The notes below the pieces were generated by a model. That model was not told where the DNA came from, did no database searches, and saw only the letters and a list, made by a program, of their open reading frames with translations. A DNA stretch of 36,994 nt from Deltaproteobacteria bacterium (GTDB lineage Bacteria > Desulfobacterota > DSM-4660 > Desulfatiglandales > HGW-15), in assembly GCA_016931115.1 (NCBI GenBank), contig JAFGFM010000147.1:1-36994 (forward strand), written 5' to 3'. Positions within the stretch are counted from its first letter, which is position 1. Every line of letters starts with the position of its first letter. The translations under genes and the position numbers were made by a program. Below are positions 282 to 34,824 of the stretch, piece by piece.

Positions 282-653
282 TTACGATTTCTGAGACTGC
301 GATTCAATCTCCTGGATACTTTTATTTATCTCATCCAGATCATTTTTTATCGCATTCGCCTCATTTTTTAGGATATTCAATTCATCTTCAGCTTTCATGG
401 CGTAAGGGGCTCCATATGGATCAGCAGGCCCATACCCTGCGCCATAAGGCTGGTAAGCTCCTCTCCTGCCAAATCCTCTTTCATATCCTCTGCCGCGTCC
501 GAATCCGCCTCCAAATCCTCCGCGAAAACCTCTTCCCATGCCCAATCCACCGCCATAAGCTGGACGATAGGCGCTGTTAGGATTGCATAAACCTCTTGCG
601 CCACCAGTCATGGGACCCTGTCCCTGCGGTCCTGTTCCATCAAATCCTGGCAT
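282..653 (-). CDS. DUF5320-type glycine-rich protein with coiled-coil tail
   Basis: A 123-residue protein that opens with MPGFDGTGPQGQGPMTGGARG, the hallmark start of DUF5320 proteins. The middle (about 30-75) is Gly/Arg/Tyr/Phe-rich and probably disordered. From about residue 86 a charged helical segment (AEDELNILKNEANAIKNDL) looks like a short coiled coil, as is usual for the family. The start is supported by AGGAGG upstream on the minus strand. It is the third gene of a minus-strand set with the DUF134 gene and a shorter paralogue (737-997). The function of DUF5320 is not known. Related genes are often found near DUF134 and NifX/NifB-like or Mrp-type iron-sulfur genes, but none of those is visible here. 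Confidence 0.85.
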   Translation of the reverse strand: MPGFDGTGPQGQGPMTGGARGLCNPNSAYRPAYGGGLGMGRGFRGGFGGGFGRGRGYERGFGRRGAYQPYGAGYGPADPYGAPYAMKAEDELNILKNEANAIKNDLDEINKSIQEIESQSQKS

Positions 654-693
654 AATAAATACCTCCTCTGTAATAATTTGAAAGTTAGTTAAT

Positions 694-711
694 GCCTCTA
701 AATATAGAGGC
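694..711 (-). other. Intercistronic hairpin between the two DUF5320 genes
   Basis: GCCTCTA and TAGAGGC form a 7-bp stem around an AATA loop in the gap between the paralogues. No T-run follows on the minus strand, so a processing or mRNA-stability element is more likely than a terminator. This is a structural observation only. Confidence 0.35.
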
Positions 712-736
712 CATGTTTAAGTATATTGCTAAAGGT

Positions 737-997
737 TTAAGATCTTCCCCAGGGGAAAAGACCAAAGGATCGGCCATATCCCCTGCCATATCCGCGACCC
801 CTGCCGCGAAAAAGCCCGGAGAAAAATCCCCTGCGAGCGCCCCTTCCAACTCTTTGTCCTCTTCCAGAACCGGATCCATATGCAGGGTTCCCTGCATATC
901 CCGAAATATCGTTATTCCGGGAAGGGTTACAGTTCCCCATTCCACGTCCTGACATAGATCCCATTCCTGCTGGACCTGTTCCATCAAATCTTGGCAT
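737..997 (-). CDS. Short DUF5320-like glycine/arginine-rich protein
   Basis: An 86-residue protein beginning MPRFDGTGPAGMGSMSGRGMG, clearly paralogous to the product at 282-653 over its first 25 residues. The start at 997 was chosen over the longer in-frame reading to 1183 because the family motif begins there, AAGGAGGTG precedes it by seven bases, and the extension would overlap the DUF134 gene. The rest is Gly/Arg/Tyr-rich (RGRGRGYGRGYGR) and ends at FPWGRS. It lacks the charged coiled-coil tail of its neighbour, so it is a shortened or lineage-modified copy. Its stop lies 84 bases before the start of the next gene. Function unknown. Confidence 0.75.
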   Translation of the reverse strand: MPRFDGTGPAGMGSMSGRGMGNCNPSRNNDISGYAGNPAYGSGSGRGQRVGRGARRGFFSGLFRGRGRGYGRGYGRSFGLFPWGRS

Positions 998-1022
998 AAG
1001 AACACCTCCTTTTCTTATTGCA

Positions 1023-1361
1023 TTAGAACCTTCCGCCACGACCATGTCTGTGGCGCCCCCATCCCCTTGGTGGCATGTCGAAATTGCCGCCAGCGATACG
1101 AAGGATTTTACCTGTAACAAGCGCATTGGCGATAATTGTCCTTGCCTCAGCAAGTATCCTTCCAAAGGTCTGCCTGGAGACATTCATCATCCTGGATGCT
1201 GTTTCCTGATCCAGTCCCTGATAATCATTCAACTTGATAGCTTCCAGCCCTTCAACAGAGAGAATTACCTCTTCCTGTCCCCATGGCGGGATCTTATCCG
1301 GTATAAATGCGCTGACTATCGGGTTTCCCTGTACAAATCTGATTTTTCTGGGCCTTGGCAT
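1023..1361 (-). CDS. DUF134 (UPF0251) family DNA-binding protein
   Basis: A 112-residue protein starting MPRPRKIRFV, the typical DUF134 opening. The core matches the family: a region leading to LSVEGLEAIKLNDYQGLDQETASRMMNVSRQTFGRILAEARTI can be read as a sigma-70 region-4-like helix-turn-helix, then ANALVTGKILRIAGGNF. The Gly/His/Arg tail (GWGRHRHGRGG) could bind a metal. The start at 1361 fits the family and has a GGAGG five bases upstream; the longer reading to 1442 only adds a hydrophobic leader unlike the family. It is the promoter-proximal gene of a minus-strand set with two DUF5320 proteins. A role as local regulator is inferred from the HTH and gene order. Confidence 0.9.
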   Translation of the reverse strand: MPRPRKIRFVQGNPIVSAFIPDKIPPWGQEEVILSVEGLEAIKLNDYQGLDQETASRMMNVSRQTFGRILAEARTIIANALVTGKILRIAGGNFDMPPRGWGRHRHGRGGRF

Positions 1362-1387
1362 ATAACCTCCATAATGAGCATGCGCCC

Positions 1388-1417
1388 ATAATATAGCTAC
1401 TGATATTATTATGTCAA
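1388..1417 (-). promoter_or_regulatory. Sigma-70-type promoter of the DUF134-DUF5320 operon
   Basis: On the minus strand a perfect -35 TTGACA (1412-1417) is followed after 16 bases by TATATT (1390-1395), or after 18 bases by TATTAT (1388-1393). It lies directly upstream of the DUF134 start. The heptamer TGAGCAT occurs on the plus strand at 1375-1381 and inverted at 1435-1441, flanking the promoter, and the outer copy is part of TGAGC-TTAT-GCTCA (1428-1441). These could be operator half-sites. Confidence 0.6.
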
Positions 1418-1442
1418 GGAATAAAAATGAGCTTATGCTCAA

Positions 1443-1880
1443 AACATAACGGCTGAGTTGTGTTGAAAACTAATAATAAAACTCACCGGTAACTATTTTA
1501 TAAAAGAGGTTTGAGTTTTTAATCTCATATTTAACGCATAAATTAATGGTTTAGTCTGCCTGCCAGAAAAACTCTTTTTAGTTAAAGTATGACAGTAGAG
1601 CAAATTTTTTTGTCTAAACGATTTTCCATAAGAAAGCAGTCGTTATATGTTTCCTGCTTTATCATCTCTTAAGTGAACCTACGTGCTATTTGAGGAAATT
1701 CCATGAGTGTGAATAATCTATTCCAGAAGAATATTTTTGACCCTGACAAACTATTGCAATCTTCCATGTCAACTCTGGCAAATAAGAACTTGTATTGTCT
1801 ATTTTCAGTTTTCAGTATATTAAAAAGTAAAAACCATTAAAAACCTGTAATTAAAAATCCGATTTGGAGATTAACTGCTT
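1443..1880. other. Gene-poor AT-rich gap
   Basis: About 440 bases between the DUF134 promoter region and the cupin gene, divergent on its two sides. No conserved coding region or RNA gene was recognised. One small frame (1703-1840, plus strand, 45 codons, ATG preceded by GAGGAA) encodes a peptide beginning MSVNNLFQKNIFDPDKLLQS. It matches nothing known to me and could be a small gene, a remnant or chance. The promoter of the cupin gene presumably lies here but no clear -35/-10 pair stands out. Confidence 0.4.
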
Positions 1881-2333
1881 ATGAAACCAATTGATCTTAA
1901 AGATCACCCGGAGGGTGGTCGTTTCTGTGAAGTTTTCAGGTCTACTGCAACAGTTACAACACTGGCAGGAAGTACACGATCTGCCATTACACATATTTAT
2001 TTTTCACTTAACCCGGGCGAAGTAAGCAGGTTTCACAGGGTAGCATCCGATGAGGTCTGGAACCTTTATCAGGGAGCAGGGCTCAACCTTTATATTTGGG
2101 ATGGGTCAGATAATTCCCCGGAGCACGTGGTTCTTTCAGCGAAAAATAATAATTTCTGTCATGTGGTAACTGCCGGTTTATGGCAGGTAGCAGAGCCTCG
2201 TTCAGATGCAGTCCTTGTTGGCTGTTCTGTTGCTCCTGGGTTTGAGTTTCAGGATTTCTCGCTTATGGGTGCAGAATCTGATGAGGCAAAGAGACTCTTA
2301 TCAATAGCTCCCCAAATGGCAAAATACCTGTAA
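1881..2333 (+). CDS. DUF985 (cupin_5) family cupin protein
   Basis: A 150-residue single-domain protein of the DUF985 cupin family. Typical features are the N-terminal DHPEGGRFCEVFRS, the conserved core SRFHRVASDEVWNLYQG (49-65), the strand LNLYIWDG, a GLWQVAEP segment and VGCSVAPGFEFQDFSL near the C-terminus. The length matches the family. DUF985 proteins are cytosolic beta-barrels with a possible sugar or metal site, and no enzyme activity is firmly assigned. It has no signal peptide. The next gene starts 13 bases after its stop, so the two may be co-transcribed, although that neighbour is exported and unrelated. Confidence 0.9.
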   Translation: MKPIDLKDHPEGGRFCEVFRSTATVTTLAGSTRSAITHIYFSLNPGEVSRFHRVASDEVWNLYQGAGLNLYIWDGSDNSPEHVVLSAKNNNFCHVVTAGLWQVAEPRSDAVLVGCSVAPGFEFQDFSLMGAESDEAKRLLSIAPQMAKYL

Positions 2334-2345
2334 AGAAGAGAAGTC

Positions 2346-2798
2346 ATGTTTCGAATAATAATGATAATAATATTGGTTCTGAGCATCCAGGGATGTAACA
2401 TCGAGGTTCAAAAGATAAAAGATTTTGAAAGTGATGGATGTACACTTTTCCCAGACAATTCATCGATCCTTAAATCGGACTGGTGTGACTGCTGCTTTGA
2501 ACATGATATTGCCTACTGGCAGGGTGGTACAGAAGATGAACGTTTAAAGGCAGATGAAACTTTGAGAGATTGTGTAAAAGAAAAATCAGGTAATGAAAAT
2601 CTGGCAAATGTTATCTATAAAGGTGTTCGATCCGGAGGAAGCCCGTACTTCTATAACTGGTACAGGTGGGGTTATGGCTGGGGTTATGGCTGGGGTTATG
2701 ACCGGAAATATAAAAAGCTGACAGTAAAAGAAAAGAAAGAGGTGGAAAATAAATTAAAGGAATATTTTTCACGTAACATTGTTCATCCATGCAGTTGA
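2346..2798 (+). CDS. Lipoprotein with phospholipase A2-like Cys-Cys-x-x-His-Asp core
   Basis: A 150-residue exported protein. Residues 1-16 are hydrophobic and lead to IQGC, giving a likely lipidation site at Cys17. The core DGCTLFPDNSS...SDWCDCCFEHDIAYWQGG (30-61) carries CCxxHD, the active-site signature of the phospholipase A2 fold, with His53 and Asp54 as candidate catalytic pair and several Cys (32, 47, 49, 50, 76) for disulfides. The classical calcium loop (Y-G-C-x-C-G-x-G-G) is not visible, so enzyme activity is uncertain. Residues 108-118 repeat Trp-Gly-Tyr-Gly, coded by a 12-base tandem repeat around 2670-2700. A basic helical tail follows. It could be a lipid hydrolase of the envelope or a fold relative with another role. 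Confidence 0.7.
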   Translation: MFRIIMIIILVLSIQGCNIEVQKIKDFESDGCTLFPDNSSILKSDWCDCCFEHDIAYWQGGTEDERLKADETLRDCVKEKSGNENLANVIYKGVRSGGSPYFYNWYRWGYGWGYGWGYDRKYKKLTVKEKKEVENKLKEYFSRNIVHPCS

Positions 2799-2864
2799 TA
2801 TTAATAATGCATCGAAAAATTATCAATAATCTTTTTTAACAATTTAGAATTGTGATCTTGTTTT

Positions 2865-2945
2865 CGTCATTCCAGCGAAGGCGGGAATCTATAAAGGTAA
2901 ATAAAAATTTAAAACAACTGGATACCCGCCTGCGCGGGTATGACG
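2865..2945. repeat. REP/MITE-like inverted repeat (CGTCATTCC type)
   Basis: An element of about 81 bases bounded by CGTCATTCCAGCGAAGGCGGG on the left and, inverted, CCCGCCTGCGCGGGTATGACG on the right. The 21-base ends pair with four mismatches around an AT-rich centre. The ends resemble the very widespread bacterial palindromic repeat with CGTCATTCC termini. It separates the lipoprotein gene from the sigma factor gene. Confidence 0.7.
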
Positions 2946-3018
2946 GATTAATCGTGATTAATTTATTTGTTTTATAACTGACAGGAATTTTTAATATTAA
3001 TATGGAATTTCCATAACA

Positions 3019-3546
3019 ATGGATAAACATCTCCCTGATATCAAGCTCGTTGAGCTTGCCAACAAAGGCGAAGAATCTGCCATGAACACCCTTTATTTCC
3101 GCTACAGGGATTGGGTATATGGGCTTGCCTTCAGGCTTTGCGGGGACAAAGAGGATGCACAGGAGATATTGCAGGAGGTATTTATCTATTTCTTTAATAA
3201 ATTTCCTGGGTTCGAGTTGCGTAGCAGTTTAAAGACCTTCCTTTACCCGGCAATTAAAAATATCACCATCAGTACTATCCGAAAAAAACGCAAAGTGATT
3301 TCCCTTGATGATCCGGCTGCTCAATGCATCCCGGACGAGAGCCTCAACTGGACAGAAGAGTTCAGGAATCTATCCGAATACCTTAAAGGGTTTTCAAAAG
3401 AAGATAAAGAGCTTGTATGCTTGAGATTTTATGATGAATTACAGCTTAATGAGATATCAGAGGTATTCAAGGTACCTGTAGGTACAATAAAATCCCGTTT
3501 AAACAGGCTGTTAGCCCGCCTGAGAGAAAAAGTTAAGAAAGGATAA
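3019..3546 (+). CDS. ECF-type RNA polymerase sigma factor
   Basis: A 175-residue sigma-70 family protein with only regions 2 and 4, as in extracytoplasmic-function sigma factors. Region 2 spans about 18-90 (ALNTLYFRYRDWVYGLAFRLCGDKEDAQEILQEVF is the 2.1-2.2 area, split here by residues 20-55) and region 4 spans about 115-170, with the HTH LNEISEVFKVPVGTIKSRLN typical of region 4.2. It is cytosolic and would direct core RNA polymerase to its own promoter set. The downstream gene, 192 bases on, encodes a single-pass membrane protein in the usual position of an anti-sigma factor, so regulation by that partner is inferred. Target promoters cannot be read from this window. Confidence 0.93.
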   Translation: MDKHLPDIKLVELANKGEESAMNTLYFRYRDWVYGLAFRLCGDKEDAQEILQEVFIYFFNKFPGFELRSSLKTFLYPAIKNITISTIRKKRKVISLDDPAAQCIPDESLNWTEEFRNLSEYLKGFSKEDKELVCLRFYDELQLNEISEVFKVPVGTIKSRLNRLLARLREKVKKG

Positions 3547-33285: not shown

Positions 33286-33343
33286 TTGCACCCTGTTTCC
33301 ACCATTATTTTTTTATCTTTTCCATTATAGAGGAGTTTTTGTA

Positions 33344-33904
33344 ATGCGTATTGATTATATCGAGATAAAAGCGACATGGCGTGAGGTTGCTGATGCTGCC
33401 AGGACAACTGTGGGTATGGAAAAGGGCCGTGGAGAACCTGGTGTAAAATGGCGACACAAGATGCTTCTTTGTGAACATTCCCCAATACGCCAGCTGATTA
33501 TAAAGTGGAAATGGGTTGATCTGCAGTACTGGGTAAGCGTTCACTTTGTCAGGCATAAGATAGGCATAGAGCACTTTGTAAGCACACAGCGAAGCGACCG
33601 GACAGGTGTTAACAGGGATGAATTACCTCAGTCTCAGATGGTAACGCATGAGTGCATAGCCAATGCACAGGCAATAATAAATATCTCAAGAAAAAGATTG
33701 TGCGCCCAGGCATCACGTGAAACAAACAAGGCGTGGAAACTGTTACTGGATGCCGTTAAAAAGGAGTTGCCCGAACTATATAATGTTTGTGTGCCTGAAT
33801 GCATATACCGCGGTTTCTGCCCGGAACTTAATTCCTGCGGCTGGGCCGCGACAGATGCCTTTGCTGAGAAGCTTAAACAATACAGAGAAGTCTCTTTTGA
33901 CTAA
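33344..33904 (+). CDS. Divergent ThyX-like protein
   Basis: A 186-residue protein. Its middle follows the flavin-dependent thymidylate synthase pattern: LLCEHSPIRQLI (42-52), then a strand leading to VHFVRHKIGIEHFVSTQRSD (66-85), which lines up with the ThyX signature R-H-R-x-x-S-x-N-E-x-S-x-R but keeps only part of it. Then comes an alpha-helical region NAQAIINISRKRLCAQAS. Four cysteines at 149, 153, 159 and 165 (CVPECIYRGFCPELNSC) could bind a metal. Known ThyX makes dTMP from dUMP with FAD and methylene-tetrahydrofolate; loss of signature residues makes that doubtful here. GAGGAG precedes the ATG. A homocysteine methyltransferase gene follows by 35 bases, so both may touch one-carbon metabolism. 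The family call is tentative. Confidence 0.6.
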   Translation: MRIDYIEIKATWREVADAARTTVGMEKGRGEPGVKWRHKMLLCEHSPIRQLIIKWKWVDLQYWVSVHFVRHKIGIEHFVSTQRSDRTGVNRDELPQSQMVTHECIANAQAIINISRKRLCAQASRETNKAWKLLLDAVKKELPELYNVCVPECIYRGFCPELNSCGWAATDAFAEKLKQYREVSFD

Positions 33905-33939: not shown

Positions 33940-34824
33940 ATGAAATCACCTTTTTCCGAGATAAAGAAGGGCCATATCCTGATTTCAGACGGGGCATGGG
34001 GCACAGAGCTTCATAAACGGGGGCTGAAGCCGGGGGAATGCCCTGAAAACTGGAATCTGACACACCATGATGATGTGTATGCAATTGCAAAGGGCTATAT
34101 AGATGCAGGCTCTGACATCATTTTAACCAACAGCTTCGGGGCCAATCCGATTAAGCTTAAAAATTATAATCTTGAAGAAAAGGTCGTAGAGTTAAACAGG
34201 GCTGCTGCAATGATATCAAGGGAGGCAGCTGGTGACACCCATTTTGTCTTTGGATCAATGGGGCCCACCGGTTTAATGCTGTGTACTGGCGATGGTTCTG
34301 AAGATGAGGTATATGAAGGTTACTGCATACAGGCAAAGGCGCTGGCAGAAGGGGGCGTTGATGCACTCTGCATAGAAACGATGTCTGATCCTGTAGAGGC
34401 AAGCCTTGCAATCAAGGCTGCAAAGGCATCAACAAGTTGTGAAGTTGCCTGTACATTTGTTTTTAATAAATCGCTATCAGGGGATTTTCACACAATGATG
34501 GGGCTTTCTGTTGATGATGCCATGAATATTGCCAGGGGGGCAGGAGCAGATATTATAGGCTCCAACTGCGGTAACGGCATAGATGGCATGGTTGAAATTG
34601 TTGGACTGATCAGAAAACAAGATAATTCTACCCCAATCCTGGTTCAGGCCAACGCAGGCCTTCCAATTTTCAAGGATGGAGAAACCATTTTCAGGGAAAC
34701 ACCTGAGCAGATGGCTGGAAAGGCGGCTGACCTTATAAATGCAGGGGCAAACATTATAGGTGGTTGCTGCGGAACCAACTCTGAGCATATCAGGGCGCTG
34801 GCAAAGGCTGTCAGAAAGATTTGA
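33940..34824 (+). CDS. Homocysteine S-methyltransferase domain protein
   Basis: A 294-residue TIM-barrel protein equal to the N-terminal homocysteine-binding domain of MetH. It has DGAWGTELHKRGL (17-29), NSFGANPIKL, GSMGPTG (105-111), IETMSDP and the three zinc cysteines Cys210 (GSNCGNG), Cys276 and Cys277 (GGCCGT). The zinc activates homocysteine thiol for methyl transfer. There is no folate, B12 or reactivation domain, so either the methyl donor is delivered by a separate corrinoid protein or it uses another donor such as S-methylmethionine. A corrinoid adenosyltransferase gene lies 1.7 kb away. GGAGA precedes the ATG. It is probably co-transcribed with the ThyX-like gene. Confidence 0.9.
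   Translation: MKSPFSEIKKGHILISDGAWGTELHKRGLKPGECPENWNLTHHDDVYAIAKGYIDAGSDIILTNSFGANPIKLKNYNLEEKVVELNRAAAMISREAAGDTHFVFGSMGPTGLMLCTGDGSEDEVYEGYCIQAKALAEGGVDALCIETMSDPVEASLAIKAAKASTSCEVACTFVFNKSLSGDFHTMMGLSVDDAMNIARGAGADIIGSNCGNGIDGMVEIVGLIRKQDNSTPILVQANAGLPIFKDGETIFRETPEQMAGKAADLINAGANIIGGCCGTNSEHIRALAKAVRKI

Follow-up and report, generated by a model that had tools for sequence, protein, structure and literature searches.

Flavin-dependent thymidylate synthases of the ThyX type (PF02511, TIGR02170), exemplified by TM0449 and the ThyX of H. pylori, are homotetramers that bind FAD and NADPH and carry a classic signature defined as RHR-x7-S; their chemistry leaves tetrahydrofolate reduced, and the fold of ThyA is unrelated to theirs. 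PolB, a UMP/dUMP methylase of polyoxin biosynthesis, also makes dTMP, and nine of its residues are named as essential in the part of its description that was available (PMC5003785). The accessible part of another paper states that His53 of the T. maritima ThyX contacts both flavin and folate (PMC11940539). The compact protein described below is a variant of ThyX, and three phage copies of it are already named as such by their depositors; a search of the literature by title and abstract returned no description of a compact ThyX-like family.

A compact gene with a ThyX fold

The window analysed here is the whole stretch of 36,994 nucleotides. The ORF under study lies on its forward strand at positions 33344 to 33904, starts with ATG and encodes a compact ThyX-like protein of 186 amino acids, which we propose to be a thymidylate synthase. 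A Shine-Dalgarno-like GAGGAG, recognized from the sequence, is located at 33330 to 33335 of the same strand, 8 bases 5' of the ATG. One scan each yielded 50 further loci encoding relatives of the protein from bacterial genomes and 16 from viral contigs, 66 in all, with identities of 37 to 72%; because the family recurs in this way, the ORF is not a chance one. Another genome of this genus encodes a copy that is 97% identical. A plasmid search gave no match.

The results of the profile searches showed that the window protein scores below both curated cut-offs, with 18.2 bits against 24.8 for Pfam Thy1 and 15.1 bits against 87.9 for the NCBIfam thyX profile (TIGR02170). Thy1 was nevertheless its sole Pfam match at E ≤ 10, the ThyA profile PF00303 not being reached, and 51 of 55 family members matched Thy1 at E ≤ 0.01, some of them passing the Pfam cut-off when the pieces of the match were summed. 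A PHROGs search with the window protein gave no match, and three of seven of its relatives gave weak matches to thymidylate synthases. Searching the PDB with the window protein, by sequence and by profile, gave chance matches only, and it was the comparison of folds that settled the ThyX identity. The AlphaFold2 model built with the family alignment had a mean pLDDT of 92.7 and a pTM of 0.86, and the best 50 of its 328 Foldseek matches were ThyX structures and PolB. Among the best 50 entries of a separate VIA-align comparison, ranks 1 to 47 were ThyX or PolB with Z scores of at least 10.4, and the score fell to 2.9 at rank 48; the top match was the H. pylori ThyX (3ah5_A), with a Z of 13.2, an rmsd of 2.6 and 156 aligned residues. 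A profile-profile alignment (hhalign) of the family with seven ordinary ThyX sequences gave an E of 4.1e-6 and a probability of 87%. From the predicted structure we are confident that the window protein has the ThyX fold, and the ThyX-like layout noticed in a first-pass annotation is thus real, although the resemblance is weak in the profile searches. The protein shares with ThyX the fold, the aligned arginines, the RH motif, the [ST]-x-R loop and the NAR/NAQ helix; it was not filed as a standard ThyX because it falls short of both curated cut-offs and of the classic RHR signature.

Immediately downstream, at 33940 to 34824 of the forward strand, is a homocysteine S-methyltransferase-like gene (PF02574, E 1.2e-66), as the first-pass annotation had also proposed. 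Among the loci compared, this neighbour was seen only in the genome of the same genus, and it therefore says little about the function of the ThyX-like gene. When 68 stretches were compared for a conserved gene neighbourhood, only close kin proved to share neighbours, and a functional link to the homocysteine methyltransferase was dropped for this reason. One recurring cluster in that comparison was set aside, since by eye it looks like antisense frames of the ThyX-like gene.

Active-site residues and the cysteine quartet

We then compared the residues of the family in an alignment of 55 of its 67 rows, from which 12 of the 66 loci were left out (L045, L047, L049, L050, L052, L053, L056, L060, L062, L065, L066 and L068). 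Twenty-four columns of this alignment are invariant, and they include E44 and H45, I48 and R49, RHKIGIEHF (70-78), R83, D85, Q109, R118, C120, C153, Y155 and R156, C159, and C165. The signature of the window protein, RHKIGIEHFVSTQR (residues 70-83; 33551 to 33592, forward strand), follows a pattern, RHK-x8-[ST]-x-R, that is present in 55/55 aligned members, while the seven ordinary ThyX sequences compared all have RHR-x7-S-x-R. The window protein consequently lacks the classic RHR-x7-S signature, and the altered key positions that had been pointed out earlier are real, the motif being RHK and not RHR. As read from the aligned sequences, the signature is modified and not lost, a lysine replacing the second arginine and one more residue preceding the serine or threonine. 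The third residue varies further in more distant viral members (RHH, RHP).

Comparison with ordinary ThyX by hhalign showed that R91 (33614 to 33616, forward strand) aligns with the arginine of ARxxLP and that R118 aligns with that of NAR...LR, at the end of a helix (N107-R118; 33662 to 33697, forward strand) which the AlphaFold2 model places at residues 108 to 118. R70, H71, R83 and R118 are found in 55/55 members and R91 in 53/55. The distance from R70, in the signature, to R91 is 21 residues instead of the 68 to 86 of the ordinary ThyX proteins compared, so that this part is 47 to 65 residues shorter in the compact family.

In our mapping, Arg82, His83, Arg98, Arg166 and Arg193 of PolB correspond to R70, H71, R83, R91 and R118, respectively, R91 and R118 being placed by hhalign and the three others by the signature, and Ser96 corresponds to the threonine or serine at position 81, while no counterparts of Arg86, Glu94 and Gln206 were identified in the compact family (residues as given in the available part of PMC5003785). 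Five of the nine PolB residues named in that part, substrate-binding arginines and a histidine of the active site, thus have conserved counterparts in the compact family. The position of the histidine that ordinary ThyX conserves, which we take as that of the T. maritima His53 according to the accessible part of PMC11940539 and to hhalign, is occupied by Glu44, followed by His45. From these correspondences, substrate binding looks kept and the flavin and folate side altered; the lysine, the shifted serine or threonine and the shortened part could alter catalysis. The likeness to PolB extends to the fold (4p5b_B, Z 11.0). PolB sits in an antibiotic gene cluster (available part of PMC5003785); the ORFs near the window gene were read by eye only.

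The first-pass annotation had drawn attention to four cysteines near the C-terminus that could bind a metal. These cysteines, C149, C153, C159 and C165, are present, and a conserved quartet does exist, but C149 is variable, being a methionine in 24/55 members, and the fourth invariant cysteine of the 55-row alignment is C120. The proposed metal site would thus be made of C120 (33701 to 33703) together with C153, C159 and C165 (33800 to 33838), all on the forward strand. Clostridial-type ThyX proteins (L075, L077, L078 and L083) have cysteines at the aligned positions (RCC ... GPxC ... G-x-C ... SCG), and the Cys4 site is therefore not peculiar to the compact family; these proteins differ from it in being full-length, with 258 to 263 amino acids, and in having the classic RHR signature. 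The cysteines of L083 were missed by the pattern search and are present on reading. The simplest guess, drawn from the sequences, is that the four invariant cysteines would hold a structural metal, for which zinc is a likelier candidate than an iron-sulfur cluster.

Distribution of the family and of known thymidylate enzymes

Judged by their record titles, the carriers include Kiritimatiellae, Lentisphaerae, Verrucomicrobia, Desulfospira, a spirochaete, Oscillospiraceae, Lachnospiraceae and others. Viral and bacterial rows are mixed in the family tree, which was built without the fragment L056 and with two rows shortened: its 19 viral rows entail at least eight changes of label, five of which are forced by starred branches. 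With its many open forks and long branches, the tree reveals neither which way the gene moved nor from whom the host genus received it. Eight phage records match the family, two of them representing one phage and PQ571274 being only 26% identical. Three records with copies 44 to 47% identical, PQ006092, PQ571309 and PQ571310, annotate the gene as ThyX or as an FAD-dependent thymidylate synthase, a name that comes from the depositors only; the signatures of the two that were read have RHH and RHP.

A ribonucleotide reductase (RNR), NrdG, dUTPase or FolD was found near the gene at 6/19 viral loci and 0/50 bacterial loci, a count for which the queries came from those same loci, which has no control of random phage genes and which leaves out a 35-residue piece of RNR in L004. 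A FolD-type gene is directly upstream in L006, with a protein of the radical SAM/4Fe-4S reductase-activase kind nearby; ribonucleotide reductase, dUTPase and 5'-nucleotidase surround the ThyX-like gene in L010, and DNA polymerase III alpha is directly upstream in L003. According to the depositors' annotations, PQ006092 (L091) has an anaerobic ribonucleotide reductase and a dUTPase within about 6 kb, and PQ571309 has nearby the small subunit of an anaerobic reductase, as well as a pyrophosphohydrolase that matches dUTPase in structure. A ribonucleotide reductase also stands beside the distant relative in PQ571274 (L093). Other viral loci are without such a nucleotide link, with, for example, IMP dehydrogenase in L017 and NAD-synthesis genes in L011. 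In L016, the viral ORF at 642-3212, near the ThyX-like gene, contains an intein splicing domain.

The 50 bacterial loci come from 49 carrier genomes of unstated completeness, L056 and L034 being in one assembly. In 35/49 we found neither a PF00303 ThyA match nor a separate full ThyX. Twelve have a PF00303 ThyA-like match, full-length in three and partial in nine (the three partial ones that were scanned are ThyA-like), and two hold a separate full ThyX. The second enzyme in these 14 genomes could reflect redundancy, phage-borne copies or mixing in assemblies, and could also point to another function of the compact protein in some lineages.

The genome of the host, with a size of 5.18 Mb and a completeness of 98.5%, was searched for a true thyA or thyX elsewhere, a check that the first-pass annotation had called for. 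The ThyA profile gave no match, the Thy1 profile gave no ThyX over its cut-off, and the PF00265 thymidine kinase profile gave no match, the search for deoxynucleoside kinases being confined to that family. A second Thy1 match in the host, on C113 (12.5 bits), was rejected since its frame shows no ThyX features. Among 48 genomes of the host class, each at least 90% complete, the compact family is present in two, both of the host genus. ThyA matches (E ≤ 0.001) occur in 41/48 and are absent from the two carriers, ordinary ThyX occurs in 1/48, and 5/48 have none of the three enzymes. The association of carriage with absence of ThyA and ThyX has a Fisher P of 0.019 and likely stems from one event within one genus. 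Of the 41 ThyA matches, two were read; both are closest to the methanogen-type ThyA, below its curated cut-off, and such methanogen-like proteins (L071 1453-2130 and L072 1486-2148) may be what the class usually employs as its thymidylate synthase. A PF00265 match was found in 1/11 class genomes tested and not in the host genus; its absence is the rule in the class, and thus no special sign in the host.

We also examined an independent, Oscillospiraceae-type set of 200 genomes, each at least 95% complete, from the taxonomic family to which G022 belongs. At E ≤ 0.001, 16/200 genomes matched the compact family: seven strong carriers (E 9.8e-97 or lower), two with divergent copies (G266 and G279), and seven short matches that were left out, six of which lie in ThyX frames and one of which is a contig-edge fragment (G179, E 3.7e-5) in a genome that has ThyA and was not counted as a carrier. 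ThyA was matched in 157/200 and ThyX in 29/200, absence being defined as not appearing in the complete match lists; since the divergent copies of G279 score above the Pfam cut-off, they are included in the ThyX count. Neither ThyA nor ordinary ThyX was found in 7/7 strong carriers, against 14/193 of the other genomes (Fisher P 5e-8, uncorrected for kinship, so that the true strength is less). The 14/200 genomes in which all three enzymes are missing, like the 5/48 of the host class, show that absence alone is no proof of need.

DHFR is absent from 7/7 strong carriers; it is present in 19/19 ThyA genomes tested (of 157) and in 11/17 tested genomes with ThyX and no ThyA (of 22), and absent from 12/14 genomes that are without all three enzymes. 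Its absence from carriers fits a ThyX-type chemistry and also fits a life on salvaged thymidine; it is not specific, given the 12/14 and the 11/17. All seven strong carriers have a PF00265 thymidine kinase, which makes thymidine salvage possible there. The host and its sister genome both have DHFR, and the argument from DHFR absence does not bear on them.

Several other proteins and genomes of the 200-genome set were noted. Twelve genomes without ThyA, ThyX, the compact family and DHFR (G103, G125, G165, G174, G202, G221, G223, G242, G249, G259, G269 and G280) may be auxotrophs or may have a further unrecognized enzyme. Single frames of 453 to 489 amino acids with tandem ThyX matches occur in G113, G124, G154, G164, G194, G215 and G287; in the tandem ThyX of L080 (1025-2392), the first half is without RHR while the second has RHR and the cysteines. 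L079 (G113:C39:50624-51250) is ThyX-like, is without the RH signature and has a similar C-terminal cysteine pattern. The two copies of G279 and that of G266 (L084, L085 and L086) form a sister subfamily in which RHVH[AS]QP[FY] replaces RHKIGIEHF, and G266, with its RHVHAQPY protein, has a full ThyA too.

A proposed source of dTMP

The reading that we consider likely, from the sequences and the structural model, is that the window protein is a compact, divergent ThyX which serves as the host's own source of dTMP, the cysteine quartet holding a structural metal. The one-carbon unit of methylene-tetrahydrofolate would pass to dUMP via FAD to yield dTMP, the use of FAD and folate and catalysis itself being presumed, and the protein would stand in for the methanogen-type ThyA of most other genomes of the class, which shares this proposed task and has no match in the host genome. 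We propose this role because ThyA and ordinary ThyX were not found in most carrier genomes; judging from the sequences, the compact ThyX is probably the dTMP route of the host and of a number of other anaerobes. The suggestion of a repurposed ThyX fold, made from the window alone, found no support in view of the modified signature in 55/55 members, the equivalents of substrate-binding residues and the tendency of carriers to be without ThyA and ThyX.

We consider it unlikely that the protein is instead a ThyX-fold C5-methylase acting, like PolB, on UMP, on a nucleoside precursor or on a modified phage base, with dTMP obtained otherwise. PolB is indeed among the structural matches, the signature loop is altered, a ThyA-like protein or ThyX accompanies the gene in 14/49 carriers, and the related protein of G266 coexists with a full ThyA; but the host is without a recognized ThyA, ThyX or PF00265 kinase, presence of the gene follows the absence of ThyA and ThyX in the 200-genome set, and PolB makes dTMP as well (available part of PMC5003785). 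That it is a regulatory or degenerate relative without activity, its carriers living on salvaged thymidine or an unrecognized enzyme, seems highly improbable to us. The scores under the curated ThyX cut-offs, the 14/200 and 5/48 genomes in which none of the three was matched, the thymidine kinase of all seven Oscillospiraceae-type carriers and their lack of DHFR, as in 12/14 of the none-of-three genomes, agree with such a relative, whereas the 24 columns that stay invariant over 55 rows, drawn from several phyla as well as from viral contigs, point to an active site under selection, and the host genus has no PF00265 kinase, the one kinase family searched.

The nature of the Cys4 site was weighed as a refinement that is compatible with these readings. 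An iron-sulfur cluster that would replace NADPH as the electron source of the flavin is allowed by the invariance of the four cysteines, by their spacing and by the presumably anaerobic life of most carriers; since the quartet aligns with that of ordinary clostridial ThyX, it is not tied to the altered active site, and the titles of the matched structures listed name no cluster, a comparison of titles and not of the cysteine content of those proteins, so that we regard such a cluster as very unlikely. It also seems unlikely that the family is a separate, minimal thymidylate synthase lineage, carried by phages too and the sole dTMP source of many anaerobes, with a cysteine-bound redox cluster replacing NADPH and an altered chemistry in which the long insert would be missing and a lysine and a shifted serine or threonine would lie in the flavin/dUMP loop.

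If the compact, divergent ThyX is active, it would be a naturally shortened ThyX that shows what the enzyme can do without, and a further case of thymidylate synthase replacement in which viruses are among the carriers, such as the available part of PMC9894754 proposes for ANME-1 archaea. ThyX is named as a drug target in the parts of the literature that were available, and a natural variant of its active site would be informative on the binding of substrate and flavin. Since the window protein falls short of the cut-offs of the curated profiles, genomes that carry the family can look unable to make thymidylate, and their organisms could be wrongly called thymidine auxotrophs.
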